Part shown: piece after piece, positions 8,248-27,082 of the stretch
Layout: each line of letters starts with the position of its first letter
How positions within the stretch are numbered: position 1 is the first letter of the stretch
Assembly (NCBI RefSeq): GCF_018688335.1
Contig: NZ_CP061316.1
Coordinates: 1,922,001-1,986,000 of the forward strand
Source of the DNA: Polynucleobacter sp. AP-Jannik-300A-C4
GTDB taxonomy: Bacteria; Pseudomonadota; Gammaproteobacteria; Burkholderiales; Burkholderiaceae
Direction: 5' to 3'
Length of the DNA: 64,000 nt
Position numbers and translations under genes: made by a program
Notes under the pieces: model-generated
The model's input: the letters and a program-made list of their open reading frames with translations, nothing else
Database searches by the model: none
What the model was told of the DNA's origin: nothing

Positions 8248-8312
8248 AAAAAACCGCTAGCAGCTAGTTTTAGTATTAATTGGTGGGCCGGGGCGCAGTG
8301 AGCCAGAACCCA
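8248..8312 (-). repeat. Array repeat a (degenerate): terminator plus tRNA-Phe 3' end
   Basis: AAAAAACC, a decayed CTAG/CTAG stem and TTTTAGTATTAATTGGTGG match the better-kept repeat at 18708 in order and spacing, followed by GCCGGGGCGCAGTGAGCCAG in place of the tRNA acceptor/T-arm sequence. The DM13 gene stops 31 bases beyond. Confidence 0.65.
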
Positions 8313-8343
8313 TGGCGCCCAACCCCAGCAAAACTACTTTTAC

Positions 8344-8832
8344 TTACCTTGCAGGGAGCAAGTCTGCCGATCCAATGTATTCTTTAAATTGCTTGCACCA
8401 AATCAGCATACTACTTACATCTTCTGGATTTTCTGTTTTTAAAAGATAGAATGCGGCGCCATTGGGTTTTTTGATCCGACTCACTTCAATTTGTTGAGAA
8501 CTAAACCCATCATTGTCTTTAATGGCAGGCTTGCTGCTGATATAGATATGATAGTCTGGCCCAGGGCTTGATCTAAAGTCCTCGCTTGATTGTAAAAATA
8601 ATTGATTGCCTACCTTGACTAAGGACCATTCACCAGAGGAGTTGTGAATCAAGTCCTGCCCTTTTGCATTTTTGTCAATTTGTCCTCGCTTTAAGATGAT
8701 GCCTTCAATCTTTTGATGCTCTTCCGTGCGCGCTCTCAGATCCTGAACGTGGCCACGGATTGCATCGAGGATCTGCGCATTTGCAGTTGGCATGAGCCCA
8801 ACAAATAGAAAGCTGAGGAGTAATTTTTTCAT
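8344..8832 (-). CDS. DM13 domain protein, exported
   Basis: A 162-residue protein with a signal peptide (MKKLLLSFLFVGLMPTANA). The rest is one DM13 domain: an N-terminal beta region (ILKRGQIDKNAKGQDLI), the conserved FLQSSEDFRSSPGPDYHIYI near residue 80, and WCKQFKEYIGSADL at the end. The Cys in the last motif is the strictly conserved DM13 cysteine. DM13 domains are thought to act in extracytoplasmic redox or electron transfer; no partner domain is fused here. The stop lies next to array repeat a, so it may be the outermost preserved gene unit. Confidence 0.85.
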   Translation of the reverse strand: MKKLLLSFLFVGLMPTANAQILDAIRGHVQDLRARTEEHQKIEGIILKRGQIDKNAKGQDLIHNSSGEWSLVKVGNQLFLQSSEDFRSSPGPDYHIYISSKPAIKDNDGFSSQQIEVSRIKKPNGAAFYLLKTENPEDVSSMLIWCKQFKEYIGSADLLPAR

Positions 8833-8878
8833 ATTGCCGGCATTACAAAATTGAGCGCATATCTAGATGTGAGCGTAC

Positions 8879-9268
8879 TTAGTCTTTGGGTCCATATTGC
8901 ATCTCACCATGACCAAACGACCAATTTTCTTTATTGACTTCCACTAAGTTAATAACAATATCTTCTGGTCGAATGTTAAGTTTCTCTACCACCCCATCAC
9001 AGATGGCTCTATAGAATTTTTTCTTCAGCCCGGTGGTGCGGCCCTCATTCAAGGTTACCTGAATGAAAATAATGCCCTGCGAATATTCAATACCAAGATA
9101 GCTTTTTGGAACCACCAGTTCATCGGCATCATGCTTAGTAATGACCTGAAACTTATCGTCAGCAGGTACATTAATATGTTTCACCATCACCTCGTAAACA
9201 ATATCTCCAATTTTCTGGGCCACTCCATCGGGATATTGCTTACCCAAATCTATTCGTACAAATGGCAT
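8879..9268 (-). CDS. Tautomerase family protein
   Basis: A 129-residue member of the tautomerase/MIF superfamily. After removal of Met1 the catalytic Pro2 would be N-terminal (MPFVRIDLGKQYPDG). The two beta-alpha-beta halves cover residues 2-60 and 63-120, and FIQVTLNEGRTTGLKKKFYRA is the second conserved segment. Such proteins promote keto-enol tautomerisation or dehalogenation of unsaturated acids. It lies 37 bases upstream of the DM13 gene's region on the same strand and downstream of a redoxin gene, so a short operon 9847-8344 is possible. The substrate is not known. Confidence 0.85.
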   Translation of the reverse strand: MPFVRIDLGKQYPDGVAQKIGDIVYEVMVKHINVPADDKFQVITKHDADELVVPKSYLGIEYSQGIIFIQVTLNEGRTTGLKKKFYRAICDGVVEKLNIRPEDIVINLVEVNKENWSFGHGEMQYGPKD

Positions 9269-9310
9269 CTTGAGATCTCCGTTTTTTTACATTGCCTAAG
9301 CAATCATTGC

Positions 9311-9847
9311 TTATACAGAACCAGTGTATTCACCACGCGCTGGATAATCCTTAGCCAAGGCAAAATCAATCGCGCCCAATAGGTCAGTAAAATTAGGGCG
9401 TGCAAAAGGCATAGTTTGGACAGCGCCGTAATAAAGCGTGGTGTCCGGTCTAAGGATAAAGACTGCTGGCTCCGAGAATAAAGCGGGCTCTTCTATGCCA
9501 ATCGATGTTAGACCGCGTGAGGTGCTGATGTACATACCCCATTGACGCGCAACATCCAAGCTTAATCCATAGCCCATTCGTAATTCAGGGGCGTTGAGTT
9601 TTTCAGTCATTTGCTCTGTGCGTTCCTTAGTATCACTTGAAATAGCAATGACCTTAACTCCACGCTTTTCAAACTCGGGAACTAAACGCGCTAACTCCAA
9701 GAGATACTTCATACATATTGGGCAATGAAGACCGCGATAAAACACTATTAATGTGAAATTCTCGGCAGCATCAATGGATGTATCAAAAGTGCCGTGATGC
9801 AAGGTGGGGACGCTTAATGCAGGAGTAGTTTGGCGGGGTATCAGCAC
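9311..9847 (-). CDS. Peroxiredoxin-like thioredoxin-fold protein
   Basis: A 178-residue redoxin-domain protein. VFYRGLHCPICMKYLLELA near residues 32-50 has a CxxC site at the start of the first long helix, as in AhpC/TSA-like thiol reductases. GVKVIAISSDTKERTEQM and FILRPDTTLYYGAVQTMPF follow in family order. It is probably a cytoplasmic thiol-dependent peroxidase or reductase. The divergent AraC-type gene starts 56 bases away, so the two likely share a control region and the regulator may govern this gene. Confidence 0.82.
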   Translation of the reverse strand: MLIPRQTTPALSVPTLHHGTFDTSIDAAENFTLIVFYRGLHCPICMKYLLELARLVPEFEKRGVKVIAISSDTKERTEQMTEKLNAPELRMGYGLSLDVARQWGMYISTSRGLTSIGIEEPALFSEPAVFILRPDTTLYYGAVQTMPFARPNFTDLLGAIDFALAKDYPARGEYTGSV

Positions 9848-9903
9848 AGAAAGCCTCTTCTTAAAAAGTTATGAGTTTTGATTATTACTGATTAAATGCA
9901 ACA

Positions 9904-10704
9904 ATGTGTCCATATTTATTTGCTTTTAGTACAAATATGCCCGCCCAAAATCTAGATCGACTGTCCGCCCTTCTGCAAGGGCTTGCCCCGCGAGTGTCAC
10001 TTAATGATCAGCTCGTCGGATTTGGCTTACATATCCTGGTTGATATAAATCCACAAAAACTAGGCTCTTCTTTAGAGAATATGGTGCTACTCGTATGCCC
10101 AGCCCTTGATGACATGGTTTTGCCACCGCATGCAAAGAAGTGGATGAGCTTTGAGGTTGAACTAGATGGGCCATTGGCACCCATGTTTTTATCGGAGTTT
10201 TCAGAACAGCTCTTAATTAACTTAGAAAATGCAGATGCTTCACTTACTCAAATCGTGCGTTTAATTTCAAGTGAAATGGCAGCCACCAGATGTGGACAAC
10301 CTTTATTAATTAATCGGGCTGGAGATATTTTGCTGATTGGCTTGCTCAGGCATTTGGTTGCTCGGCCACAAAAAACTACTGGCCTATTTAGCGCTTTAGC
10401 CAATCCAAGAATTGCCAAAACCCTTGTTGCTATCCATGAGGACGCATCCAAGAACTGGTCTCTAGATGCCCTTGCTCTAGAAGCAGGTATGTCGCGTACA
10501 TCGTATGCCCATCAATTTAAGAAATTGATGCAAATAACGCCCGGCAAATACATAGAAAGAATTCGGCTGAATTTAGCTCATAGACTCATTGTCGATGGCA
10601 TAGGTTTAAAGCAGGCGGCACGTCATACAGGTTATTCAAGTGCATCTACCCTCTCGCGCGCAATGAGCCGCCTATCAATTAGAGAAAAATGCGCTAAAAC
10701 CTAG
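9904..10704 (+). CDS. AraC family transcriptional regulator with cupin-type N-terminal domain
   Basis: Up to 266 residues. The N-terminal half (residues 12-165) looks like the AraC cupin_6 ligand domain (LDRLSALLQGLAPRVSL ... GDILLIGLLRHLVARP). The C-terminal half has two helix-turn-helix units: WSLDALALEAGMSRTSYAHQ and KQAARHTGYSSASTLSRAMS. The start at 9904 is uncertain; Met12 at 9937 fits the family's usual N-terminus better, and neither has a clear ribosome-binding site. It is divergent to the redoxin gene at 9847, its probable target. It is one of the few plus-strand genes within the array span. Confidence 0.88.
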   Translation: MCPYLFAFSTNMPAQNLDRLSALLQGLAPRVSLNDQLVGFGLHILVDINPQKLGSSLENMVLLVCPALDDMVLPPHAKKWMSFEVELDGPLAPMFLSEFSEQLLINLENADASLTQIVRLISSEMAATRCGQPLLINRAGDILLIGLLRHLVARPQKTTGLFSALANPRIAKTLVAIHEDASKNWSLDALALEAGMSRTSYAHQFKKLMQITPGKYIERIRLNLAHRLIVDGIGLKQAARHTGYSSASTLSRAMSRLSIREKCAKT

Positions 10705-10737
10705 AAGCAATTAGATTTGCAGGAATTTACTAAGCTC

Positions 10738-10789
10738 AAATAGCCCCTTAGTAAAAGGGAGGCGAGAATACTTGGGGGCCCTAGATAAG
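10738..10789 (-). repeat. Array repeat b (strongly degenerate)
   Basis: AAATAGCCCC, a weak stem ending AAGGGAGG, then AATACTTGGGGGCCCTAG line up with the repeat at 15476 (AAATAGCCC ... ATTCTTGGTGGCCCGG). As in the better repeats, a minus-strand gene stops exactly at its right edge (10790). Support is by position plus weak similarity. Confidence 0.45.
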
Positions 10790-11632
10790 CTATTCGCCAA
10801 CAGTGGATTGAACTTGACCAGTTTTAATCCACTGAATAACTGCTTTTGTAGCGGCCTCTTCCCTGCCCCCCATCGAATGTAAGTGCGTTCCACCACATAT
10901 GTCCCCCATACCCTCACCGCCTTTTACTGTTATCAAATTATTTTTAGAATATGCCACAACAGTTGCATAAGGGGTATGGGAGCACTGATCATCGCCATGA
11001 TGAATATTCAACACGGGCGCCCTCAATGCTGACATATCAAATGACTCCACTGAAGAGCCATAGCTTCTGTTGTAGTTATTAGCCACCGTCATAGATGCAG
11101 AATGAATACTGCCCTTTATTTCAGTACCCAGATTTTTAGCAAGCCACTTTGATGAGATTGTTCCGTAGCTATGGCCCATCACATAAAAATTTTTGATCCC
11201 ATACTTTTCTTTCAGTAGAGTCATAATTTTTCTTACGTCATCGGCATGCTTCACAGAAGATCGATAGTCATCATTACACCCCAATGGCTTATTACCTGGT
11301 GCAACGCTATTTTCATCACTAGGGCAATCCATGACAACAAGCGCTATGCCAGACTGAGCAAACAACTCAGTATTGTTTTGTAAATAATTTAAGTTTCTTT
11401 TCCAATCATTTTCCGTCTTAATGTTGGCAATTCCAGACCAACCACGATAAAAGAGCAAAGCCGTATCTGTTTGCATGGAAGGCTTAAGCAATATTGCCCT
11501 TTGAACAACTGGAGATTTCGAAAAAACTCCCGACTCTCTTCCAACATCAGCTTCAAGAAGAATGGGGCTCATTGTTTGAGCGGTCACAGAGCCAAAACAA
11601 AAGAAAGCGCAGACGCTTAACAGCCATTTCAT
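10790..11632 (-). CDS. Alpha/beta hydrolase, exported
   Basis: A 280-residue protein with a signal peptide (MKWLLSVCAFFCFGSVTAQ). The hydrolase fold shows the nucleophile elbow GHSYGTISS (Ser near residue 168), an acid in NIHHGDDQC near 230 and a His in GGTHLHSMGG near 258. Two cysteines (near 119 and 130) could form a disulfide, fitting the periplasm. It is a serine esterase or peptidase of unknown substrate. Its stop overlaps the edge of degenerate repeat b, and repeat c lies 88 bases above its start, so it fills one array unit. Confidence 0.82.
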   Translation of the reverse strand: MKWLLSVCAFFCFGSVTAQTMSPILLEADVGRESGVFSKSPVVQRAILLKPSMQTDTALLFYRGWSGIANIKTENDWKRNLNYLQNNTELFAQSGIALVVMDCPSDENSVAPGNKPLGCNDDYRSSVKHADDVRKIMTLLKEKYGIKNFYVMGHSYGTISSKWLAKNLGTEIKGSIHSASMTVANNYNRSYGSSVESFDMSALRAPVLNIHHGDDQCSHTPYATVVAYSKNNLITVKGGEGMGDICGGTHLHSMGGREEAATKAVIQWIKTGQVQSTVGE

Positions 11633-11720
11633 TTTTTATCCCTAGACTTGCATATAAATAGATTTAACTAACCGTGACACTCTATCCTATTTTTGAGGCA
11701 TATCCTAAACCCTATAAATG

Positions 11721-11797
11721 AAAAAACCACCCGGAGGTGGTTTTGGCGTTTCTTTATGGCCTGGGGCGGAATCGACCAGAACTTAAGATGTCCAATG
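11721..11797 (-). repeat. Array repeat c: terminator plus tRNA-Phe 3' end
   Basis: Stem CCACC-CGGA-GGTGG with flanking A and T runs, then GGCGTTTCTTTATGGCCTGG GGCGGAATCGACCAG (with two changes in the acceptor part) and a diverged tail AACTTAAGATGTCC. It ends at the stop of the MAPEG gene. Confidence 0.85.
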
Positions 11798-12196
11798 CTA
11801 TTCAACCAGCTTATACAGAGTCCATCCCAAGTTGAAAATAACTAATGTAATCAACGTACCGAATGTGAACTTCATTCCCAAAATGCGTTTACTGAAATCT
11901 GGTGGCGGCTCATTGATGCCTACAGCGTGAATTAAGCGTCCAACAACTAAAGTGATGCCTGGCATTGCAACCAACCACCAAGGCGCACCATTTAATTCTA
12001 GACAAGCAATTAATATGATTCCGAAAGGTACATATTCGGCAAAGTTTCCTTGGGCACGAATCGCCCTCTCAAGATCATCATGACCCCCATTTCCCAGTCC
12101 ACACTTGTTTTTTCTTCTCAGTCCAATGACGGCAAACGAGAGTTTGATAAAGATGATAGTTAAGATACAGGCAATGATTGAGGTGACTAATAACAT
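11798..12196 (-). CDS. MAPEG family membrane protein
   Basis: A 132-residue protein with four predicted membrane segments (about 1-22, 55-72, 76-92 and 110-130). ERAIRAQGNFAEYVPFGIIL near residue 45 is the MAPEG core, and the Arg-Asn-Phe-Glu pattern belongs to the glutathione-binding site of the family. Relatives are microsomal glutathione transferases or bacterial proteins of unknown substrate in the inner membrane. It is a single gene between repeats c and d. MAPEG genes are also frequent as integron cassettes. Confidence 0.88.
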   Translation of the reverse strand: MLLVTSIIACILTIIFIKLSFAVIGLRRKNKCGLGNGGHDDLERAIRAQGNFAEYVPFGIILIACLELNGAPWWLVAMPGITLVVGRLIHAVGINEPPPDFSKRILGMKFTFGTLITLVIFNLGWTLYKLVE

Positions 12197-12235
12197 TTAG
12201 AGCTCCCAAAAGAATTCCTAGATATTAATCAGAAA

Positions 12236-12311
12236 AAGAAAAGATACCCAGAGGTGGCTTGTGAAATCTTGCTAGCTCTAGGCAGGATTAACTTGGGCAT
12301 CGGAACTCTGA
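12236..12311 (-). repeat. Array repeat d (degenerate)
   Basis: AAAGATACCCAGAGGTGGCT, then GTGAAATCTTGCTAGCTCTA, GGCAGGATTAACTTGGGCAT and CGGAACTCTG. These align piece by piece with repeat h (14416), including AAATCTTG, the GG-GGAT core and the final CTGATC. It ends at the TGA of the DUF1398 gene. Confidence 0.6.
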
Positions 12312-12707
12312 TCATTGTGGAAAATGCTCAATATGCACTTCGCCCTGCCGCCCGAAATAACTCACATGCCTTCCAGCTATCCAAACAATGTATCCGATGC
12401 AGCCAGCAGCCATCGTTAACTTAAGAAACTCAGGATATCTCACCACATCACTTTGAGCGCCGCGAATTGCTGAAACGACTCTATCTTTATTAAATGAATT
12501 TGGGATCTCCACCAGAGGCATATCCATAGGAACAGCACAAACCTGATGGCTTGACAAATAATATGTGGTTGATTGATTGCGATAGTCAGCGAAGTAAGAC
12601 TCAACACCAACCTCAATTAAGCGACCCAATGCCTCTGGGAAGGTTAGAAGACCAGCATGAGATTGATGGGCACATTTTTCAATAACATCTTTTGTATTCA
12701 GATTCAT
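12312..12707 (-). CDS. DUF1398 family protein
   Basis: 131 residues from the ATG at 12707, chosen because AAGG lies 7 bases upstream and the product then begins MNLNTKDVIEKCAHQSHAG. The central YFADYRNQSTTYYLSSHQ and the closing YVSYFGRQGEVHIEHFP-type segment (WIAGRHVSYFGRQGEVHIE) are typical of DUF1398 proteins such as E. coli YbcV/YedX-type relatives; the role is unknown. There is no signal peptide. It occupies one unit of the array between repeats d and e. Confidence 0.78.
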   Translation of the reverse strand: MNLNTKDVIEKCAHQSHAGLLTFPEALGRLIEVGVESYFADYRNQSTTYYLSSHQVCAVPMDMPLVEIPNSFNKDRVVSAIRGAQSDVVRYPEFLKLTMAAGCIGYIVWIAGRHVSYFGRQGEVHIEHFPQ

Positions 12708-12752
12708 AAGCAACCTTAAATTAATAACTTGAATTATCACGCCTCATAAATG

Positions 12753-12807
12753 AAAAAACCACCTTCAGGTGGTTTTGGTGTTTATTGGGTGCCCGGCTAA
12801 GGATGCC
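12753..12807 (-). repeat. Array repeat e (tRNA part mostly deleted)
   Basis: Stem CCACC-TTCA-GGTGG, then GGTGTTTATTGGGTGCCCGG, after which about 20 bases of the tRNA part are missing and CTAAGGATGCC follows. The next gene's stop codon (TTA on the plus strand) is inside the conserved GGATGCCTTACTCT end. Confidence 0.8.
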
Positions 12808-13659
12808 TTACTCTGTTGGAGGCAATTCTGCTCCCACCGGTCTTTTGTAGCGGTTGTAAGACCACATATATTGGTGTGGCTTTGAAAGTATCATTTTCTC
12901 AAAAGACTGATTCATTTCTGTGCAGGCATCAACTAGGCAATCTGGAAAGGTCTCTGTCATCAAGCGACTCTTAATTAGCCAACCTCCTCCTAACCCCAGT
13001 CTTTCTGCGCCAACAAAAAGGATTGCTACATTTGCTTGGCGAGCTAATTTAATTGGAAATGATGTTGTGTAGGCATATTGATTAAAAAATTTAGCCCATA
13101 CTCCATCGCCCACGCTAGGCACCTGATCCGCCAATAGGCCAACTACCTCACCTTTTACTAAAGCTCGTTTAATCTGACGAACCCCACTAATATTTGCTTC
13201 AACAAAATCAATTTCAGAGTGTTTACGTGACTTAAGCATAAGCTCATTCACCCATTTTTTTCTAGCTGGTCTATACATTACTGTTGCTCTTGTATGTTCA
13301 GCAAAGATACGTGGCACTATCTCAAAGCCTCCGAAATGTGAGGCAAGAACAATTAAGCCTTTTCCATTTTTGGATAGTTCAATAACTTGATCTAAGTGCT
13401 CTATGCTAACTTTCTCAATGGACGATTTCGGATGTCGCCAAATCCATAATGTGTCTGCAAACATCATTCCAGATTCAGCCGCCACCCTCCACGGGGTCAA
13501 TTTGAATCCAGAATAATGGGCTGCGCTCTGATGATTTTTATATAGGCGCCGTCTGTACCTAGGAGAAAACAAGTAAATCAATACACCTATGCCAGCGCCA
13601 ATAATTTGAATGGCTGCCAATGGAAGAGAGCTAAATAGCCTCAATGTGAAATACAACAT
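12808..13659 (-). CDS. Lysophospholipid acyltransferase of the LpxL/HtrB type
   Basis: A 283-residue inner-membrane acyltransferase. One membrane segment lies at residues 12-32 ([19 protein letters not shown]). The catalytic HX4E motif is in [13 protein letters not shown] near residue 108, followed by [17 protein letters not shown] and [14 protein letters not shown] with the phosphate-binding Arg and the DQ motif. Members add secondary fatty acids to lipid A (LpxL/LpxM) or to related lipids. A housekeeping LpxL would normally sit elsewhere, so this copy in a mobile-looking unit may change lipid A. It lies between repeats e and f. Confidence 0.88.
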
Positions 13660-13682
13660 TGGTCATTCTAGACGCTATTAAT

Positions 13683-13753
13683 AAAAAACCACCCGAAGGT
13701 GGTTTTGGTGTTTCTTGGTGGCCCGGAGTGCAATCGAGCCACCGACACAAGGG
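13683..13753 (-). repeat. Array repeat f: terminator plus 42 nt of tRNA-Phe 3' end
   Basis: Stem CCACC-CGAA-GGTGG, then TTTCTTGGTGGCCCGGAGTG CAATCGAGCCACCGACACAA GG. Unlike the other repeats it keeps the T-stem and variable loop of the tRNA (CCACCGACACAAGG on the plus strand), so it is closer to the parental gene. The small lipoprotein gene ends inside it. Confidence 0.88.
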
Positions 13754-13906
13754 TTATCTACCCTGACAAGCAAGCGGCATCTCCCATAAAGGCTTTTCTT
13801 GACTAAAGTCACAATTCACACCCACGGGCGATGTTGTGCTCGCAAGACAGCCGCTCAACACCAGAATGAGTAGAGTCGAGCTGAAGGCTTTAAGCAATTT
13901 TTTCAT
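13754..13906 (-). CDS. Small lipoprotein (50 residues)
   Basis: A short frame starting [20 protein letters not shown], where the last five residues form a lipobox, so Cys20 would be lipidated after signal peptidase II cleavage. The mature part of about 30 residues holds two more cysteines and ends MPLACQGR. Its stop codon lies in the decayed tRNA sequence of repeat f. It is the smallest single-gene unit of the array (repeats f to g are 260 bases apart). The function is unknown; envelope location is inferred from the signal. Confidence 0.72.
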
Positions 13907-13942
13907 TTGTATCATCAGTAATTAATTTATAAATCTTAATAG

Positions 13943-14022
13943 AAAAAACCACCCGAAGGTGGTTTTGGTGTTTCTTGGTGGCCCGGGGCGGAATCGACCA
14001 GGGCCGAGGATGTCTTACTCTA
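13943..14022 (-). repeat. Array repeat g: terminator plus tRNA-Phe 3' end
   Basis: Complete copy: CCACC-CGAA-GGTGG stem, GGTGTTTCTTGGTGGCCCGG, GGCGGAATCGACCAG, then the conserved non-tRNA end GGCCGAGGATGTCTTACTCT. Confidence 0.92.
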
Positions 14023-14050
14023 TCCAATTGGATAAGACCCGCATCAAAAA

Positions 14051-14299
14051 CTATTTCATACAAGAAATTAAGTACGCCCTTAAACGAATTAAACCAGGGT
14101 ATGGTTGACCATCATTAAACCAACCGACTTTTACATTTGGGGCCATAAACTCTCGCTCCACTCCACCTATATCAGCAAAAAAACAATGCCAGGGCTTTTC
14201 ATCGTCTCCTTTAAAGGCAACCAATTTTGTGACGCTGGTAATGGATTCATTATCTATTACAGTACCCCAACCAAATTCACTCAAATCTTTTTTTGCCAT
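14051..14299 (-). CDS. Small hypothetical protein
   Basis: An 82-residue protein starting MAKKDLSEFGWGTVIDNESI, with no signal or membrane segment. It is rich in Trp, Phe and Gly (EKPWHCFFADIGGVEREF, VKVGWFNDGQPYPG), which suggests a small beta-rich fold. I do not recognise a family. It is the only gene between repeats g and h. Its stop lies about 30 bases from the repeat, whereas neighbours stop at the repeat edge. Confidence 0.65.
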   Translation of the reverse strand: MAKKDLSEFGWGTVIDNESITSVTKLVAFKGDDEKPWHCFFADIGGVEREFMAPNVKVGWFNDGQPYPGLIRLRAYLISCMK

Positions 14300-15319: not shown

Positions 15320-15357
15320 GGTTTCTATACATACGTATATGCGTATATATGTGTAAT

Positions 15358-15465
15358 GTCGCTTTAAACGATATTGACTGACGCAGGGATGAATAATTGA
15401 AGTGTCCTTTAAAAGGACGATTCTTGATGGGGACATCCTAGACTAATGGCGATTAACCCTGTGAA
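15358..15465. repeat. Dispersed 100-bp element with two palindromes (copy 1)
   Basis: GTCGCTTTAAACGAT, then TGACTGACGCAGGGATG, then GTCCTTTAAAAGGAC, then ATGGCGATTAACCCTG. The same blocks in the same order occur at 19449-19557. Both sit just left of an array repeat. A shortened copy holding the first palindrome and ACTGACGCAGGGAT is at 20656-20700. Confidence 0.85.
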
Positions 15466-15475
15466 TCCTTAAAAG

Positions 15476-15555
15476 AAAATAGCCCAACAAGTGGGCTATT
15501 GAGATTCTTGGTGGCCCGGGGCGGAATTGATCAAGACCAAAGATGTGTAATCCTG
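15476..15555 (-). repeat. Array repeat i: variant terminator plus tRNA-Phe 3' end
   Basis: The stem here is AGCCCA/TGGGCT instead of CCACC/GGTGG, followed by GAGATTCTTGGTGGCCCGGG, GCGGAATTGATCAAGACCAA and AGATGTG. The tRNA acceptor part is intact; the tail has decayed. Confidence 0.88.
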
Positions 15556-15561
15556 CCAAAA

Positions 15562-16377
15562 CTAGGGTTTTATCCAAAACTTCCACCAGGGCTTTCTATT
15601 TTGAGAAGTAATTTCTTTCTCATCTTCCTGAAGCTTAAAGAATGGCAGCAATAAATCTTCCATAGAATAAAAACCTTTTGGTTTTCCATGCAACTGTTCT
15701 ACGGCAAATAAGATACCGTTTCCAAATGCTTCTCGTGAAATAGATTCATGCTTCAGTCGCACAGTTTGGTACGGAAAGCCGAATAAAATTTCATGTGTGC
15801 CAATAATGCCGCCAGCCCTTATAGTCTTAATCGCATCTTCTGATAGATTCAGCTCTCTTGCTATAACTTTCGCGGTACCAGAAACTTCAGGCTTTTTCTT
15901 AAAGTGCTCCTCTATGATTTCAATATCAGTATAGGGCGCTATGTTTTTTAATATTTTTGCGGCAATCAATAAAAAATTAATCCCCAAAGTGATGTTCGGT
16001 GAATGCATCACCACAGTTCTATCTTGAAAGCTCTTTAATCTTGCGAGAACAGCCGGCTCATATTGAGAAACTGCGCTAACGATAATCACCCCGCGTTTTG
16101 CCGCAGCCTCGGCATAGTAATCAATACCCGATTCATTTGAAAAATCAATGATGGCGTCAACTGGCATATGATCTAGCAACTGATCTGCAGTAAATTCATC
16201 TTTCGAATGTATTAGGCCCGGCTCATCAGACTTGATGCCTAAAAATTCAGGTACTGAGCGATGCTCAAGGGTTGTTGATTGCCTCACAACCCACTGTAGG
16301 TTTGTAAATTTAGACTCAAGTAAAACCGTTGCAACAGAGCGTCCTGTTTTGCCAAAACCAATAAGACCTACTTTCAT
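15562..16377 (-). CDS. DapB-like dihydrodipicolinate reductase family protein
   Basis: A 271-residue NAD(P)-binding protein. The Rossmann motif is GLIGFGKTGRSVA at residues 4-16. The DapB C-terminal signature is altered: IEEHFKKKPEVSGTAKVIA near 150-168 replaces the usual EaHHrxKxDAPSGTA, keeping the first His and the Lys but not the second His. SPNITLGINFLL and IRAGGIIGTHEILF also match DapB. It may reduce a tetrahydrodipicolinate-like compound or act on another substrate; it is likely not the housekeeping DapB. The gene fills the unit between repeats i and j. Confidence 0.78.
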   Translation of the reverse strand: MKVGLIGFGKTGRSVATVLLESKFTNLQWVVRQSTTLEHRSVPEFLGIKSDEPGLIHSKDEFTADQLLDHMPVDAIIDFSNESGIDYYAEAAAKRGVIIVSAVSQYEPAVLARLKSFQDRTVVMHSPNITLGINFLLIAAKILKNIAPYTDIEIIEEHFKKKPEVSGTAKVIARELNLSEDAIKTIRAGGIIGTHEILFGFPYQTVRLKHESISREAFGNGILFAVEQLHGKPKGFYSMEDLLLPFFKLQEDEKEITSQNRKPWWKFWIKP

Positions 16378-16556
16378 ACTTTGCCCCTACAGATCTAGTG
16401 GAAAGAAAGGCGCATACTTTTGATATCAATGCCGATTAGCTGGCATATACACGCAAGGACAATTAACTGAAGAGTTAAAAGAATATTTTCTAGACCTACT
16501 TTACCATATGAAAGTTATGAATCTAATTTAGTCACTTAAGCCGTTGACCCACAAAC

Positions 16557-16629
16557 AAAAAACCACCCGAAGGTGGTTTTGATGTTTCTTGGTGGCCCGG
16601 GGCGGAATCAACCTGGGCCACAGGATGCC
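16557..16629 (-). repeat. Array repeat j: terminator plus tRNA-Phe 3' end
   Basis: CCACC-CGAA-GGTGG stem, GATGTTTCTTGGTGGCCCGG, GGCGGAATCAACCTGGGCCA and CAGGATGCC. The GATGTTTCT spacer is shared with the intact tRNA-Phe gene. The DinB stop codon lies in the conserved GGATGCCTTATCC end. Confidence 0.92.
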
Positions 16630-17148
16630 TTATCCAAGCTCTGATTCATTAAAAGCATCTCTTATATACACAGGCAAATCTATTGATGGCGGCCTATAGC
16701 CTGACTGATAAAACATATCTCCAATATGGCCGCGATGAAATGCTTTGTGATTACAGACGTGAATCAGAATGTCGCCTCTTGTCATTTCTCCGGCACCACC
16801 ATCAACGAAGCAAAAATGAACCTTTTCATTGAGTAGCGGCTCACTCATCGTGTCGGCATACCGAATATACCAATCACCCATTTCATTTAATTTCTCCGTC
16901 AGTAACTCCAAAGAATCTGGCGACTCAGTGGTGCGCGACTTAAATCCGTGATCCATTCCAAGTAAATGGGCTCGCCATATTTGGTCAACAATAGCGATAT
17001 GAGCCAAAGCGAATGACATTCCGCCAAATGCCGCGGCACGCTGTTTCGTGACCTCTTCAGGAGGCAAGGTGGCAATGGCGTCCAAAAGCATATTGTTTGC
17101 CCATTTGTTATAGCGTGTGAGCATTCGGATATTTCGAACAGCAGACAT
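16630..17148 (-). CDS. DinB family protein (copy 2)
   Basis: 172 residues from the ATG at 17148, which has AGAGG as ribosome-binding site and gives the same N-terminus as copy 1 (MSAVRNIRMLTRYNKWANN). The metal-binding histidines are in ALAHIAIVDQIWRAHLL and HVCNHKAFHRGHIGDMF. By eye it is about 88% identical to the protein at 6524-7042. It fills one array unit (repeats j to k, about 630 bases). A thiol-dependent transferase role is expected for the family; the substrate is unknown. Confidence 0.9.
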   Translation of the reverse strand: MSAVRNIRMLTRYNKWANNMLLDAIATLPPEEVTKQRAAAFGGMSFALAHIAIVDQIWRAHLLGMDHGFKSRTTESPDSLELLTEKLNEMGDWYIRYADTMSEPLLNEKVHFCFVDGGAGEMTRGDILIHVCNHKAFHRGHIGDMFYQSGYRPPSIDLPVYIRDAFNESELG

Positions 17149-17187
17149 ATGGCCTCTTTTGGATAAGTCAGCACAGTCTAACAAATG

Positions 17188-17265
17188 AAAAAACCACCCG
17201 AAGGTGGTTTTGGTGTTTCTTGGAGGCCCGGGGCGGAATCGACCAGGGCCGAGGATGCCTGATCC
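17188..17265 (-). repeat. Array repeat k: terminator plus tRNA-Phe 3' end
   Basis: CCACC-CGAA-GGTGG stem, GGTGTTTCTTGGAGGCCCGG, GGCGGAATCGACCAGGGCCG and AGGATGCCTGATCC. One change in the tRNA CCA-adjacent part (GGAGG for GGTGG). Confidence 0.93.
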
Positions 17266-17273
17266 TTAAGGCA

Positions 17274-17879
17274 TTAGTGATTGTGGCCTTGATTATTCTT
17301 TGGCATCTGACCATTCATCATTTTCTGATGTTGTTTCATCATCTTTTCATGCTCCTCTGGATGGCAAAACTCGTGATCCAAGTTACCACCCATTTGATGA
17401 GCATTCGCACCCTTATAACCAAGAATACTTGGATCAAGCATGCCGGCAATCATAGCGATGTGTCCAAATACCAAGAACAAGGCAACACATATCGCATGAA
17501 TCTTTAACTTACCCATTTGATCTAGTGCTCGATTAACCAAACCGAACTCTTGTAGGGCAATCCAGATCAGCGGCAATCCTGCGATGACATAAGTGCCAAC
17601 AGCGATTACATCAATCACCGTTCTCCACTCGCCTGCCTGTGTAATAGGAATGATGGCATTCATCACAATGTAGTAAATGATGCCGACAAAGTAAATGCCT
17701 ACAGCAATTCCAGAAAAGCGATTGAGGTAATAAACAGCACCATCGAACTTGCGAGTAAAGAGTAGATATAACTCAGTAATAGCTAAGGTTTCGGCCAAAA
17801 CAATTGGTATGGCCATAAAGATAATTAAATTCCAAGGCTGATTAACAGCCAATAACTCCATGTAGTGAGTCATGTTCAT
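17274..17879 (-). CDS. Multi-pass membrane protein with His/Met-rich C-terminus
   Basis: 201 residues from the ATG at 17879, selected because GGAGA precedes it by 7 bases. Five or six membrane segments cover residues 15-155. The C-terminal 55 residues are rich in His and Met (DHEFCHPEEHEKMMKQHQKM and ending NNQGHNH), which suggests metal binding, perhaps copper, on one membrane face. I do not recognise the family with certainty. It lies 57 bases downstream of a small exported Cys/His-rich protein on the same strand, so the two probably form an operon handling a metal. Confidence 0.7.
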   Translation of the reverse strand: MNMTHYMELLAVNQPWNLIIFMAIPIVLAETLAITELYLLFTRKFDGAVYYLNRFSGIAVGIYFVGIIYYIVMNAIIPITQAGEWRTVIDVIAVGTYVIAGLPLIWIALQEFGLVNRALDQMGKLKIHAICVALFLVFGHIAMIAGMLDPSILGYKGANAHQMGGNLDHEFCHPEEHEKMMKQHQKMMNGQMPKNNQGHNH

Positions 17880-17936
17880 AAGATTTCTCCAATAGATTAC
17901 GGTGGCTAGATGCCACAAAAATTAGTTAATGCCTAG

Positions 17937-18269
17937 TTAACTAATCAGTCTTGGAGGTTTGAATATATGACTTGGAACTGCCTCAACAATGAGTTGGGGC
18001 ACTTGAGAAACAAAGTGATTTGAGAAATCTGGCTGGATATATTGGCTGGTAGATAAGTTTGCTACCACGCCCAAACAGCATTGATGCTGTGCTTGATGGT
18101 TGGTTGATTGCGACTTCTCAACATTCACATCACTTTTTGTATGGCAATCATGCTGAACTACATGCCCAGAATGAGCTTGTGATATGGAGTCGGCAGATAC
18201 GGGCATGCTACCTGCGTGAATCAAGCTGGCAAATAGACTAAAGCAAAGGGCGATACATATCCTTCTCAT
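17937..18269 (-). CDS. Small exported His/Cys-rich protein, probably metal-related
   Basis: A 110-residue protein with a signal peptide (MRRICIALCFSLFASLIHA). The mature part has clustered His and Cys residues (AHSGHVVQHDCHTKSD, NHQAQHQCCLGVV) and ends PSHIFKPPRLIS. This layout resembles the small DUF2946-like or CopL-like proteins often found beside copper genes; I cannot name the family firmly. On the minus strand a TAGAAT -10 box lies about 15 bases upstream, and the palindrome GTCGTTTTAAACGAC at 18300-18314 sits near its -35 position. Confidence 0.65.
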   Translation of the reverse strand: MRRICIALCFSLFASLIHAGSMPVSADSISQAHSGHVVQHDCHTKSDVNVEKSQSTNHQAQHQCCLGVVANLSTSQYIQPDFSNHFVSQVPQLIVEAVPSHIFKPPRLIS

Positions 18270-18297
18270 ATTTCCATTCTATGCCCATTTGCTAGAT

Positions 18298-18325
18298 TTG
18301 TCGTTTTAAACGACATTCCTATAAT
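18298..18325. promoter_or_regulatory. Divergent promoter with palindromic operator GTCGTTTTAAACGAC
   Basis: For the plus-strand gene, TTGTCG (18298-18303) and TATAAT (18320-18325) are 16 bases apart, with the palindrome at 18300-18314 covering the -35 and spacer. For the minus-strand gene the palindrome lies about 19 bases upstream of TAGAAT. The position suggests an operator or activator site for both. Confidence 0.65.
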
Positions 18326-18353
18326 GGGATAAGCAAAAACACTTAAGGCTCAA

Positions 18354-18704
18354 ATGGCTTGGATCATCACCAAATACTTACTAACAGCAGGAATGGTTGT
18401 ATTCATTTCTGAAGTTGCCAAACGCAGTGATAGATTAGGTGGCTTTATTGCGGCATTGCCATTAATGACCCTTTTAACTTTGGTATGGCTTTATGTAGAA
18501 AACCAGCCCGAAGAAAAGATTGCCAATCACGCCTATTACACCTTTTGGTATGTGATTCCAACGCTACCTATGTTTCTATTATTTCCATATCTACTTCCTA
18601 AGCTCGGATTCTGGATAACCATGGGGGCTTGCGTGGTGACAACTGTTATCTGCTTTGGTTTATTTGTCTTGGTGATGAAAGGCTTTGGAATTAATCTGCT
18701 CTAA
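18354..18704 (+). CDS. DUF3147 family membrane protein (copy 1)
   Basis: A 116-residue protein with four membrane segments (about 5-22, 30-48, 62-82 and 90-112). AALPLMTLLTLVWLYVE in segment 2 is typical of DUF3147/GlpM-like proteins, small inner-membrane proteins of unknown function. It is about 95% identical by eye to 47714-48064. Its promoter holds the palindrome described at 18298. Transcription runs toward repeat l, whose terminator also works in this direction, so gene and repeat make one unit. Confidence 0.85.
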   Translation: MAWIITKYLLTAGMVVFISEVAKRSDRLGGFIAALPLMTLLTLVWLYVENQPEEKIANHAYYTFWYVIPTLPMFLLFPYLLPKLGFWITMGACVVTTVICFGLFVLVMKGFGINLL

Positions 18705-18707
18705 ATG

Positions 18708-18784
18708 AAAAAACCACCCGGAGGTGGTTTTAGTATTTCTTGGTGGCCCGGGCCGAAATCGACCAGGGCTGGGGATGCCTGACT
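18708..18784 (-). repeat. Array repeat l: terminator plus tRNA-Phe 3' end
   Basis: CCACC-CGGA-GGTGG stem, TAGTATTTCTTGGTGGCCCG, GGCCGAAATCGACCAGGGCT and GGGGATGCCTGACTC. The methyltransferase stop codon follows directly (CTA on the plus strand), at the same place where the cation transporter stops after repeat m. Confidence 0.93.
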
Positions 18785-19399
18785 CTATTCCATCCTACAA
18801 AAGCAATATAAGAATTGTTGGGTGGTGCCCATTGGTGTTTTATGGGTTTCAGTTGAACTATTAATGAGCTTAAAAGTCTTGCCAAACTGCCCATGGAGAT
18901 TCTCTGAGTCATAGCGAACGACATCCAACCCACTACATTTCTCAGGGCCATCTGGACCAAAAGTGGACATAATCACATAACCACCATGCTTAACAGAGCG
19001 CATCACTTGCTCTACATATCTGGCTCGCTGAGCTTCTTCCGTTAAAAAGTGGAATACAGCTCTGTCGTGCCAAACATCAAAATAATTCTGAGGAAGCGTT
19101 GCCTGAGTAATATCAGCACAATACCAATGTACTTCTTCTGCTGACTTTCCCAGCCTTTCTCTAGCGACATCAATTGCTTTCTGAGAAATATCTAAAACAC
19201 TGATGTCTTGGTAACCCTCAAATAAAAGGTCGTCAACTAAAGTAGCTTCGCCGCCACCGATGTCAATAATCGCGGCATCTTTATTGGCTGTTGCTTGATG
19301 AATGAGATTTAAAGAAGTTTCAAGATGGGGCGTATACCAACTGACAGCATCTGGTGCCTTAGTGTCGTAGACTTTTTCCCAGTGTTCTTTGTTATCCAT
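18785..19399 (-). CDS. Class I SAM-dependent methyltransferase (copy 1)
   Basis: A 204-residue methyltransferase. Motif I is IIDIGGGEATLVDDLL near residues 43-58; an acidic residue follows in ISVLDISQKAID; motif IV is FDVWHDRAVFHFLTEEAQR near 105-125. The target may be a small molecule, since no nucleic-acid-binding domain is seen. It is about 88% identical by eye to 46084-46698. Upstream on the minus strand lies CATAGAATG as a -10 region with the palindrome GTCGCTTTAAACGAC 20 bases before it, the same layout as at 18300. In island B the copy keeps the -10 box but has lost the palindrome. Confidence 0.9.
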   Translation of the reverse strand: MDNKEHWEKVYDTKAPDAVSWYTPHLETSLNLIHQATANKDAAIIDIGGGEATLVDDLLFEGYQDISVLDISQKAIDVARERLGKSAEEVHWYCADITQATLPQNYFDVWHDRAVFHFLTEEAQRARYVEQVMRSVKHGGYVIMSTFGPDGPEKCSGLDVVRYDSENLHGQFGKTFKLINSSTETHKTPMGTTQQFLYCFCRME

Positions 19400-19448
19400 A
19401 ATTACCTTTCACATAATTATTTGATTCATTCTATGCTCATTAGATCAG

Positions 19449-19557
19449 TTTGTCGCTTTAAACGACGTCTACTGACGCAGGGATGTCTATTTGATTTGTC
19501 TTTTTAAAGGACGCTTCTTAATCGGGATATCTGATACCAATGGCGATTAACCCTGCC
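19449..19557. repeat. Dispersed 100-bp element with two palindromes (copy 2)
   Basis: GTCGCTTTAAACGAC at 19452-19466, ACTGACGCAGGGATG, GTCTTTTTAAAGGAC at 19498-19512 and ATGGCGATTAACCCTG. It matches 15358-15465 block by block. Here the first palindrome also serves as upstream element of the methyltransferase promoter. Confidence 0.85.
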
Positions 19558-19567
19558 AAGCAGAATG

Positions 19568-19644
19568 AAAAAACCACCCGCAGGTGGTTTTGGTGTTTCT
19601 TGGTGGCCCGGGGCGGAATCGACCAGGGCTGAGGATACCTGACT
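19568..19644 (-). repeat. Array repeat m: terminator plus tRNA-Phe 3' end
   Basis: CCACC-CGCA-GGTGG stem, GGTGTTTCTTGGTGGCCCGG, GGCGGAATCGACCAGGGCTG and AGGATACCTGACTC, followed at once by the stop of the cation transporter gene. Confidence 0.95.
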
Positions 19645-20472
19645 CTATTTCAACCTTAATATCCGAATAGCGCCACTCAATACCAAGAATCCAATAGCTA
19701 AACCGATAATCCAATCGGGAATCGGACTGTTAAGCCAATCAACTAATACGCCAGCAATAATCACGCCTATGTTAGCCAAAACATCATTGGCAGAGAAGAT
19801 ATAACTGGCTCGCATATGAACGCCATCATTTTTGCGTTTAGATATTAGATATAGACAGGTGACATTAACCGCCAAAGCAAGTAACGAAATCCAAATCATG
19901 GCATTTGCCTGAGGCATTGCCCCAATGTAAGTTTGATAACCTGTACGCCAAAAAGCAAGAGTGGCCAAAAGTAATTCAACAACACCAGCCAACTTAGCGG
20001 CTTTGAGCTTGTGCTGTGCGGCTTTACCAACGGCATATAAAGCTACCATATAGACTGCGGCATCAGCAAACATATCTAAAGCATCAGCGATAAGTCCTGC
20101 TGATTGAGCAATCCAGCCCACAATGATCTCAACGAAGAACATTAATCCGTTTAATGCTAAGAGCCAAATTAGGACTTTTCGCTCTTGAGCATCTTTGGCG
20201 GCATCTAATTGAGCTAGCTTAATTTCAAAGTCCTCTAACGCTTGGCTGCTTTCAATCTTTGCCCCAAAACCCAAGGGAACTAATTTATCGAGAACTACAT
20301 TAGGCTCTTCGCTATGACAAATGATTAATTTGCGATTGGGAATATCAAAATCCATGGCGTGTATCGCCAAAGAACCCAATGCCATACGAATCATCTGCTC
20401 TTCCGATGGACAATCCATAGCAGGCACGATGAATATGGTTTTAGTTACAGAAGATTTTTGATGGGTTTCCAT
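19645..20472 (-). CDS. Cation efflux (CDF-like) transporter with N-terminal HMA-like domain
   Basis: 275 residues from the ATG at 20472 (METHQKSSVTKTIFIVPAMD). Residues 10-70 look like a heavy-metal-associated fold, with the loop AMDCPSEEQMIRMALG and a short extra Cys segment. Six membrane segments follow, with LIADALDMFADAAVYMVALY carrying the Asp residues of the CDF metal site. It should export a divalent metal from the cytoplasm by proton antiport. The upstream start at 20535 is rejected because the palindrome GTCGTTTAAAACGAC (20503-20517) and a promoter would then lie in the coding sequence. The stop touches repeat m. Confidence 0.87.
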   Translation of the reverse strand: METHQKSSVTKTIFIVPAMDCPSEEQMIRMALGSLAIHAMDFDIPNRKLIICHSEEPNVVLDKLVPLGFGAKIESSQALEDFEIKLAQLDAAKDAQERKVLIWLLALNGLMFFVEIIVGWIAQSAGLIADALDMFADAAVYMVALYAVGKAAQHKLKAAKLAGVVELLLATLAFWRTGYQTYIGAMPQANAMIWISLLALAVNVTCLYLISKRKNDGVHMRASYIFSANDVLANIGVIIAGVLVDWLNSPIPDWIIGLAIGFLVLSGAIRILRLK

Positions 20473-20502
20473 GTATTTACAAATGTAACTGAAAGTGGGC
20501 TT

Positions 20503-20517
20503 GTCGTTTAAAACGAC
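20503..20517. promoter_or_regulatory. Palindrome GTCGTTTAAAACGAC upstream of the cation transporter
   Basis: Near-perfect inverted repeat 30 bases upstream of the chosen start at 20472. It is the same motif as at 18300 and 20656 and is likely an operator for a shared regulator. Confidence 0.6.
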
Positions 20518-20571
20518 AGCGCAGGCAAAGTCCAAAAGCGTCGAATACTGTGAATGTGGAGAGTAAAAATG

Positions 20572-20650
20572 AAAAAACCACCCGAAGGTGGTTTTGGTGT
20601 TTCTTGGTGGCCCGGGGCGGAATCGACCAGAGCCGAGGATGTCTGACTCT
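20572..20650 (-). repeat. Array repeat n: terminator plus tRNA-Phe 3' end
   Basis: CCACC-CGAA-GGTGG stem, GGTGTTTCTTGGTGGCCCGG, GGCGGAATCGACCAGAGCCG and AGGATGTCTGACTCTA. It is the repeat nearest to the intact tRNA and among the best preserved. Confidence 0.95.
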
Positions 20651-20655
20651 AGACC

Positions 20656-20670
20656 GTCGTTTTAAACGAC
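20656..20670. promoter_or_regulatory. Palindrome GTCGTTTTAAACGAC beside repeat n
   Basis: It starts 5 bases beyond repeat n and is followed by GTCGACTGACGCAGGGAT, as in the dispersed elements at 15358 and 19449. It is upstream of the GNAT gene (20753). Confidence 0.7.
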
Positions 20671-20752
20671 GTCGACTGACGCAGGGATAAATAATTGACG
20701 CATCCTTCTCAGGGAACTATTTAAGATGTAGTTTTGTACTTGAGATGATTCA

Positions 20753-21214
20753 ATGAACTTTGATATTCGCCGCGATAATCTGAGTGGGGCTGATGTTCAA
20801 GCACTCGTTCAAGAGCATATTACTGAGATGTTGAGTAATTCACCGATTGAAAGTGTTCATGCCTTACCCCTCGACAGTTTGCGAAAACCAGAGATTACAT
20901 TCTGGTCTGTATGGCGCCAGGGAGAAATAAGTGGCTGCGGTGCATTGATGGAGCTTGACGGCACTCATGGTGAGATAAAGTCGATGCGAACTAAAGCTAA
21001 GTTTCTGAGAATGGGTGTTGGACAAGCGATGTTGAATAGAATAATTTCTGAAGCAAACATGCGTGGCTACACTAGACTCAGCCTTGAAACTGGATCTGCA
21101 GAAGCATTTAAGCCGGCGCTTACCTTATATAAACAAAATGGCTTTGAAGTGTGCGGTCCATTCGGCGACTACAAACACGATCCGCATAGCGTTTTTATGA
21201 CGAAGATCCTTTGA
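20753..21214 (+). CDS. GNAT family N-acetyltransferase
   Basis: A 153-residue GNAT protein. The acetyl-CoA loop is in AKFLRMGVGQAMLNRIISEA near residues 82-102 (RxGxGxA pattern), with the preceding beta strand HGEIKSMRT and the last conserved part LYKQNGFEVCGPFGDY near 125-140. It should acetylate an amine on a small molecule or protein; the substrate is unknown. It is the array gene closest to the intact tRNA-Phe and so possibly the latest addition. It is one of two array units whose gene is on the plus strand. GNAT genes are common integron cassettes. Confidence 0.9.
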   Translation: MNFDIRRDNLSGADVQALVQEHITEMLSNSPIESVHALPLDSLRKPEITFWSVWRQGEISGCGALMELDGTHGEIKSMRTKAKFLRMGVGQAMLNRIISEANMRGYTRLSLETGSAEAFKPALTLYKQNGFEVCGPFGDYKHDPHSVFMTKIL

Positions 21215-21263
21215 AGGCAATCAGCTAACCCCCTAAGGCACCCGATACACAATCGCACAAATG

Positions 21264-21290
21264 AAAAAACCACCCGAAGGTGGTTTTGAT
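21264..21290. terminator. Terminator of tRNA-Phe (CCACC-CGAA-GGTGG)
   Basis: Stem-loop with A run and T run on the two sides, 7 bases from the CCA end of the tRNA on the minus strand. It is the intact parent of the stem-loops in repeats a to n. Confidence 0.9.
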
Positions 21291-21296
21291 GTTTCT

Positions 21297-21372
21297 TGGT
21301 GGCCCGGGGCGGAATCGAACCACCGACACAAGGATTTTCAATCCTCTGCTCTACCGACTGAGCTACCAGGCC
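21297..21372 (-). tRNA. tRNA-Phe (GAA), intact
   Basis: A 76-nucleotide tRNA with encoded CCA. The 5' acceptor strand GGCCTGG pairs with CCGGGCC. The D-arm holds AGCTCAGTCGGTAGAGC, the anticodon loop is TTGAAAA with anticodon GAA at plus-strand 21337-21339, and the T-arm is GGTGG TTCGATT CCGCC. It is the only complete tRNA in the window and the anchor of all repeats named here. Its 5' half and upstream region are repeated at 42349 and 54348. Confidence 0.97.
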
Positions 21373-27075: not shown

Positions 27076-27082
27076 GACGACC

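Follow-up and report, generated by a model that had tools for sequence, protein, structure and literature searches.

Integrons are, to our knowledge, the only well-characterised system that gathers single genes into arrays, and the core sites of their attC carry the motif pair RYYYAAC/GTTRRRY. At tRNA genes tandem islands are common, and the tycheposons of Prochlorococcus are tRNA-linked cargo islands with tyrosine recombinases; cis-mobilizable elements (CIMEs) are integrase-less, att-bounded elements mobilised in trans by a related integrative and conjugative element. Here we analyse an array of short genes adjoining the tRNA-Phe gene of Polynucleobacter sp. AP-Jannik-300A-C4, in a stretch of 64,000 nucleotides (the window; contig NZ_CP061316.1, positions 1,922,001 to 1,986,000) of a genome of 1,998,164 bp in one contig. 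Comparison with relatives points to cassettes, mostly of one gene, that are bordered by copies of the tRNA 3' end and are found singly in different species. Tycheposons measure 4–200 kbp and, in 'Ca. Methylopumilus', the flexible genomic island 2 (fGI-2) is described as an additive island with recurring 20-nt repeats of tRNA-Lys (both in the available part of PMC10872708). The main text of a study of islands in P. asymbioticus, in the portion available, is free of the words tRNA, repeat, integrase, cassette and integron (PMC5644125). Searches of an open-access library, outside which most subscription papers lie, listed no earlier account of the present system.

Repeat anatomy and cassette borders

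Array regions were taken from 48 genomes, later 57, picked from the best matches, so well-preserved arrays are over-represented; with one genome per species, the comparison is one of species and not of strains. Read in the sense of the tRNA, a cassette consists of a terminator, a leader, usually one gene and an altered copy of the tRNA-Phe 3' half. The common repeat (type B) reads TAGGATTAGACATCCTCGGCCCTGG-TCGATTCCGCCCCGGGCCACCAAGA in that sense. Its first part resembles the tRNA-Phe 3' half, with the anticodon arm AGGATTGAAAATCCT and with loop and variable region altered, and its second part has the same sequence as the tRNA 3' end. Each unit thus has an altered copy of its own (AGGAT..ATCCT, resembling the anticodon arm, then CGGCCCTGG), and the repeat is made up of this copy and, after it, a tRNA-identical core. 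The T-loop is often one base shorter (145 of 259 type-B repeats, against 55 with the tRNA form). The longest open reading frames (ORFs) run in the tRNA direction in 170 of 210 cases and in the opposite one in 40, and the stop codon of the tRNA-directed ones lies 42 to 54 nt before the core end (10th to 50th percentile). After 46 intact tRNAs the terminator belonged to class T1 in 28 cases, T2 in five, T3 in four, T4 in two and to others in seven.

The position of the borders was mapped in 82 pairs of units at least 93% identical (69 units in 20 clusters; 81 of the 82 pairs between genomes), of which 80 differ downstream and 81 upstream; as the pairs are not independent, the 20 clusters are the safer sample size. 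Across these pairs the arm (columns −50 to −24) follows the upstream gene only, and the terminator (columns from +1) the downstream gene only. With the arm tied to the gene before it and the terminator to the gene after it, the crossover is placed within some 24 nt at the 3' end of the tRNA. The comparison shows that cassette borders fall within a core of 24 nt, GATTCCGCCCCGGGCCACCAAGAA, whose sequence is that of the tRNA 3' end. By the same comparison the tRNA stays whole, the sequence downstream of it, usually a terminator, being supplied by the adjoining cassette. In 66 sampled pairs the identity of homologous units was 0.80–0.85 inside and dropped to the control value of 0.52 beyond both repeats.

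In the window the full-length tRNA-Phe sequence has a single match genome-wide, the gene itself, and we take its 3' end as the insertion site of the array. The 23-nt core GATTCCGCCCCGGGCCACCAAGA (up to three mismatches) matches 11 times in the window, always on the minus strand, from 11751 to 21316, with a chance expectation of 0.00 over 100 shuffles. A profile search gave 16 matches: 13 repeats (8245 to 20657), the tRNA, and two that were dropped, a lone terminator at 2072–2096 and a 19-bit match at 53098–53151. The features are as follows, all on the minus strand and found by the profile unless stated.

21297–21372: intact tRNA-Phe(GAA), found by ARAGORN, core of its 3' end at 21294–21316
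20602–20651: type-B repeat 1 (arm and core)
19598–19647: type-B repeat 2
18738–18787: type-B repeat 3
17218–17267: type-B repeat 4
16587–16637: type-B repeat 5
15506–15555: type-B repeat 6, with a terminator of another class (T2) after it
14445–14495: type-B repeat 7
13973–14022: type-B repeat 8
13713–13765: repeat 9, by sequence match, an old decayed copy of the genuine tRNA-Phe 3' half (type A-like) and not of the common type
12749–12816: repeat 10, core mostly deleted
12241–12313: repeat 11, weak and decayed (20 bits)
11751–11800: type-B repeat 12
8278–8327: repeat 13, the most decayed, at the distal end of the array

The fourteen repeats in one orientation that a first-pass annotation of the sequence had counted are these 13 plus the tRNA itself. 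Its eleven minus-strand genes ending in or beside a repeat are confirmed as well (the stop of the gene at 14051 lies 23 nt from its repeat), the eleventh being a short lipoprotein-like frame at about 13757–13908, read by eye. Its scheme of the repeat held for the copies of the tRNA end and failed for the terminator, which it had counted as part of the repeat and which belongs to the next unit.

The array is one-sided in the loci compared. Repeats above 30 bits occur in 58 of 61 loci, in one orientation within each locus, and are absent from three. In the 39 loci with an exact intact tRNA-Phe there were none upstream (318 kb), 188 downstream (485 kb) and none on the other strand; with the threshold set equal on both sides, the upstream and downstream counts were 0 against 188, 176 or 163. 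DNA like the upstream flank of the window stands beside the tRNA in 33 loci and in several relatives ends shortly before it. DNA like the distal flank was found in 36 loci, in two of them starting inside repeats, with a query containing a DinB gene that is itself perhaps an old cassette. Repeated insertion at one tRNA site, and at the same locus in relatives, is what we observe, as in an additive island.

The repeat query matched in at most 147 of 151 genomes of the genus, a maximum because it also detects a tRNA followed by the common T1 terminator, and at least four repeat places were present in 130 of the 151. In a draw of 200 genomes of the family the repeat was seen in the genus only (22 listed members), nine genomes of other genera having short tRNA or terminator matches only. 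In the named collection, 16 of the 21 contigs with the repeat signature were Polynucleobacter, and the other five were metagenome-assembled genomes labelled beta proteobacterium or Burkholderiaceae.

Some other observations concern the layout of arrays. Small arrays away from the tRNA-Phe locus (L041, L044, L045; genomes G000 and G106) have a tRNA-Phe 3' half at their start, and ARAGORN found no tRNA-Phe in these three loci. In the window, 15-nt palindromes such as GTCGTTTTAAACGAC and GTCCTTTTAAAGGAC occur at 18300, 19452, 20503 and 20656, with none outside the array; they are present in 86 of 292 units, many of them 50–250 nt past the unit start. Could they be regulator sites, or arm sites of a recombinase?

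Exchange of single units between genomes

The 248 units analysed have a median length of 954 bp (quartiles 646–1598) and form 670 homologous pairs. A common neighbour was found in only 14 of the 592 homologous between-locus pairs with a comparable neighbour. The clearest single difference is that between G147, with the order tRNA-U1-U2, and G011, with tRNA-U1-X-U2, where the borders fall at the core; it is compatible with gain, loss or separate insertion. There were 51 between-genome pairs of units at least 95% identical, linking 24 genomes; in 38 of these pairs the alignment covered at least 95% of both units. The same genome pairs were 71.5–94.9% identical (median 75.5) around xerD, a PF00589 gene so read. 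For 18 pairs of units at least 98% identical, the genomes were only 71.7–87.1% identical in that region. Thus G010 and G013 have a unit 99.8% identical over 573 bp, adjacent to the tRNA in both, over a background of 71.7%; for G016 and G071 the values are 98.8% over 3080 bp and 72.5%, and for G007 and G034 99.3% over 680 bp and 71.8%. These comparisons show that cassettes differ between genomes as single units and that near-identical ones are found in different species.

The cassettes of the window, assigned by Pfam, are the following.

20602–21293: cassette 1, GNAT acetyltransferase (gene at 20753–21214, plus strand), delimited by the unit borders
19598–20601, minus strand: cassette 2, cation efflux protein
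18738–19597, minus strand: cassette 3, methyltransferase
17218–18737, minus strand: cassette 4, DUF6803 protein and two small ORFs
16587–17217, minus strand: cassette 5, DinB family
15506–16586, minus strand: cassette 6, dihydrodipicolinate-reductase-like
14445–15505: cassette 7, weak TonB C-terminal match below the curated cut-off (14525–15319, plus strand)
13973–14444, minus strand: cassette 8, 82-aa ORF with no Pfam match
12749–13712, minus strand: cassette 10, lipid A acyltransferase family

Two of them have close twins in G072, a genome 87.1% identical to that of the window around xerD: cassette 2 is 99.7% identical over its full length (1005 bp) with different neighbours, and cassette 3 is 99.5% identical over 858 bp and there adjoins the tRNA. 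Cassette 4 is 95.1% identical over 675 bp in G024. The stretch 11751–13713 was treated as a single unit in the scoring. It has a match of 94% over 916 bp to the first unit of G107 (L049), and from its length the matching part is presumably cassette 10. A second DinB-family gene at 6524–7042 is a paralogue of the gene of cassette 5 (16630–17184); the stretches preceding the two genes form an 81% direct repeat, and a trace of the repeat arm was seen by eye just past the stop of the former, which is perhaps an old cassette without its site.

The comparison with relatives that the first-pass annotation had proposed therefore came out in favour of its central claim, that single-gene units were added one by one at the tRNA 3' region: borders match the repeats, units differ singly and neighbours are rarely common. 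Its remark that repeats are better kept near the tRNA was confirmed as well: of the 23 loci that have four or more repeats, 20 show a negative correlation of rank with score (mean rho over the loci −0.42, p=0.0006). Units with a twin at least 95% identical made up 33 of 142 at ranks 1–5 and 2 of 32 farther out (Fisher p=0.03, with the cut between ranks 5 and 6 set after inspection), and 11 of 39 at rank 1. This age order fits insertion beside the tRNA, though it is not proof for every insertion. The 44 units adjacent to the tRNA belong to at least 24 DNA families. One DNA family of 100 to 110 units was chained, probably via shared leaders, and family counts were therefore based on proteins.

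These data bear on the ordinary explanation of such a locus, the accretion of tandem integrative islands at tRNA-Phe with later decay of their integrases. Integrase-bearing elements do occur in the arrays and upstream, as it predicts. However, units 98–99.8% identical stand at new places between genomes, with matching borders in most cases, and the altered arm is a genus-wide consensus and not a product of decay. We disfavour accretion as very improbable.

The cargo is broad. The 251 type-B units encode 119 protein families, 67 of them singletons, and the largest (13 units) has a BrnT-type toxin as its representative. Among 99 scanned representatives (the 20 omitted were mostly short) 116 Pfam families were matched; the 25 most frequent families among the matches listed, the form in which both the Pfam and the PHROG results were obtained, include for Pfam acetyltransferases, transporters, dehydrogenases, superoxide dismutase and carbonic anhydrase. 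PADLOC recognised two families, with one member each, among the representatives.

Such a gene pool, like the layout, would be expected of a true integron. Yet the RYYYAAC/GTTRRRY pair occurs in none of the 259 repeats (control windows, 0 of 258). A scan of 12 complete genomes for PF00589 identified no IntI, the four array or upstream recombinases tested being far below the integron-integrase cut-offs or unscored. Membership among the integrons was rejected on these two grounds. Repeats would also arise if a tRNA fragment were simply duplicated together with its terminator, but a duplication of this kind is excluded by borders specific to each unit; between them, these two explanations retain a vanishingly small probability. 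As single-stranded DNA, six type-B sites folded no better than shuffles (z −1.25 to +0.74); of 259 sites, 130 form all five acceptor-like pairs and 83 the anticodon-like arm. Given these values we make no claim for a conserved attC-like hairpin.

Recombinases at the locus and the proposed mechanism

The right ends of 292 units were of type B in 276 cases and of type A, that is, a genuine tRNA 3' half from TTGAAAATCC on, in 16. Eight listed repeats have a tRNA-like right half, and three of these are read as joined to a type-B left arm (L043, L054, L083). None of the type-B units with both borders resolved matched any of 32 recombinase seeds, in keeping with the first-pass statement that no unit carries its own integrase. 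The 41 recombinase ORFs detected by similarity in the loci were distributed as 19 in units with a type A right border, eight upstream of the tRNA, 13 unresolved and one (L089) standing 7 kb before a type-B repeat, its left border unresolved. Integrase-bearing elements with recombinases of 424 and 188 aa are present inside arrays. The corresponding features of the window are these.

25222–25788, plus strand: 188-aa tyrosine recombinase of the upstream element (PF00589)
27139–28353, minus strand: 404-aa tyrosine recombinase of the upstream element (PF00589)
42349–42402, minus strand: displaced tRNA-Phe 5' half by sequence match, outer border of element E2 (21.4–42.4 kb)
54348–54403, minus strand: displaced tRNA-Phe 5' half by sequence match, outer border of element E1 (42.4–54.4 kb)

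The two recombinases, which the first-pass annotation had named as enzymes to try on a unit, are part of an element that lies 5' of the tRNA and not of the array itself; relatives of the same families occur inside other arrays. As these relatives are found there in integrase-bearing units with genuine tRNA 3' halves, the families are plausible helpers.

On balance we regard the locus as probably, if by a small measure, a gene-cassette platform on a tRNA gene, whose cassettes would be miniatures moved in trans by a tyrosine recombinase. Recombination between two cores would release a cassette, probably in circular form, and the cassette would enter again at the tRNA core, an analogue of attI; the tRNA would be rebuilt because it and the cassette have the core in common. 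The enzyme, with less certainty, might be a tyrosine recombinase that integrative elements at this locus provide in trans (the pair of 424 and 188 aa). That the cassettes derive from such elements as trans-mobilised miniatures may be the best step available, although unproven. Two end motifs are common to integrative elements and a minority of cassettes: GTCTAG at the right end and GTCnTTTnAAAnGAC at the left. The right-end motif (GTCTA/GTCTGG before the arm) was present in 28 of 34 type A ends, 48 of 259 type B ends and 12 of 1036 background sites, with like spacing, and the left-end palindrome in 11 of 17 type A and 61 of 268 type B ends.

A number of observations weigh against this mechanism. 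Both motifs were chosen after inspection, the 34 type A ends come mostly from a few related element families, and GTCTA was found in at least one member of only 18 of the 119 protein families, a minority. Some of the recombinase loci were fetched because they bear a recombinase, which biases that sample. From TTGAAAATCC onwards, type A ends retain the tRNA sequence unchanged. This suggests that their crossover lies in the anticodon loop, while that of the cassettes is nearer the 3' end. Four genomes (G004, G024, G036, G048) are listed without both recombinase families and yet hold twin units at least 95% identical, so that a helper would have to be transient or a different one; the twin unit of G036 has a type A end, and in G024 there is a third PF00589 gene. 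G036 has two PF00589 matches only, read as XerC and XerD. We saw neither a circle nor a free cassette, and the viral, phage and plasmid collections yielded no type-B site. Of the twin pairs, 13 of the 51 were not full-length, and cassette 3 has about 208 additional bases at its left end in G072. Finally, among T1 terminators only, the linkage to the downstream gene was partial (1.58 ± 0.27 differences against 2.73 at random).

This last value bears on the main rival, in which fragments of arrays are taken up by natural transformation and units are swapped by RecA crossovers in the repeats, with no dedicated recombinase. The partial loss of T1 linkage would follow from it, and it is workable in genomes without helper-family matches. 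The available part of a study of P. asymbioticus gives a high recombination rate (r/m 7.4) and discusses the loss of mutS/mutL in the PnecC group (PMC5644125). T1–T1 junctions, however, add about 30 homologous bases, so crossovers in the terminator should be frequent, and no clear linkage of T1 terminators to the upstream gene was detected in 16 clusters (2.44 ± 0.22 against 2.73 at random). By itself, RecA also leaves the conserved arm, the one-sidedness and the shared end motifs unexplained. We hold it to be unlikely, though a serious competitor of the in-trans tyrosine recombinase.

A different enzyme might instead act on the core, either a tyrosine recombinase absent from these genomes or a Y1/HUH transposase working on single strands. 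The crossover position of the cassettes, unlike that of type A elements, speaks for such an enzyme, and a single Y1_Tnp match was found in each of 12 complete genomes of the genus, G036 included. But the Y1_Tnp family occurs in 47 of 60 genomes of the bacterial family, 43 of them of other genera, with no array seen outside the genus; no array repeat surrounds the Y1_Tnp gene, and the single-strand folding reported above lends it no support. The Y1/HUH transposase was rejected as the enzyme for its presence in other genera and the lack of an array repeat beside its gene, and other enzymes as a group seem to us rather improbable. The Y1_Tnp gene itself (a REP-type transposase, G000:C1:83721-84047, L227) stands near 80 kb in the majority of the 12 genomes. 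XerC and XerD, considered as candidate enzymes, are present in the 12 genomes scanned, but the array core does not appear to resemble the dif consensus.

Several further elements use the tRNA-Phe gene. The outer 5' halves of E1 and E2 carry the promoter region, as in insertion on the 5' side with a break after TTGAAAA in the anticodon loop. The upstream element holds at 28413–37293 a Type III restriction-modification pair (Res, 1010 aa; Mod, 638 aa), a DUF4391 protein and an SNF2-type helicase. At 25222–28353 the 188-aa recombinase, a 346-aa protein with no Pfam match and the 404-aa recombinase stand together, a layout reminiscent of gamma-mobile-trio elements, but matches to GmtZ (188-aa protein of the window) and GmtY (its L053 relative) were weak, far below cut-off. 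A 13-kb viral contig (L139), filamentous-phage-like by eye from its ORFs, has a genuine tRNA-Phe 3' half at both ends and is an ordinary tRNA-Phe user. The element of L178 and L186, with the left end CCACCA/TATATACACCG beside a tRNA-Phe 3' end and a recombinase of 418 aa (L186) or split (L178), is another, with a shorter shared core. Matches in phage and plasmid records were to the terminator only, in Klebsiella.

Comparison with known systems

The nearest published relative we have seen is the additive island of 'Ca. Methylopumilus'; in this freshwater relative, too, an island that varies in size is marked by copies of a tRNA end (PMC10872708). The islands of that genus range from 330 bp to 42 kb with 1 to 63 coding sequences, and the available part of the same paper reports no shuffling at the level of units, no altered site and no mapping of crossovers.

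With tycheposons the array shares the link of cargo islands to tRNA genes and to tyrosine recombinases. Those islands are larger, in the size range given above, and are not single-gene cassettes bounded by repeats; in the resolved type-B units of the array no tyrosine recombinase was found. The comparison, suggested by the first-pass annotation, is usable but weaker than that with integrons or with trans-mobilised, CIME-like elements. Like CIMEs, the units are non-autonomous, share ends in part with an integrase-bearing element and accrete in tandem at one site, and those with both borders resolved are att-bounded and match none of the 32 recombinase seeds. Their att sites have the core in common with the autonomous relative, while the arms differ and the end motifs are shared in a minority. 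Unlike CIMEs, they consist for the most part of one gene, have an altered type of site peculiar to them and stand in arrays throughout a genus.

The resemblance to integrons, above all the sedentary chromosomal ones, extends to a one-sided array in one orientation of mostly single-gene cassettes, with mostly co-oriented genes whose stop is often beside the site, to a large open gene pool that includes a toxin family, and to near-identical cassettes in different species. The differences are that here the site is the end of a tRNA gene, that neither IntI nor the attC motif pair was identified, that six type-B sites folded no better than shuffles, and that each cassette brings a terminator for the gene or tRNA in front. 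An independently evolved counterpart of the integron, with genus-wide capture of single genes, an essential tRNA gene as the landing site, a modified tRNA 3' half as the cassette site and a recombinase that is not resident but comes in trans from visiting elements, is an interpretation that we offer tentatively and would stop just short of calling probable. An integron-like outcome is reached here by landing at the end of a tRNA gene. The genus is a freshwater one whose genomes measure about 2 Mb, and the 18 pairs of cassettes at least 98% identical belong to genomes that differ by 13–28% around xerD. This points to a way for a free-living bacterium of small genome size to acquire accessory genes singly. 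The sequence signature can be used to seek similar platforms behind other tRNA genes, and the system makes the need of a resident integrase for cassette capture directly testable.

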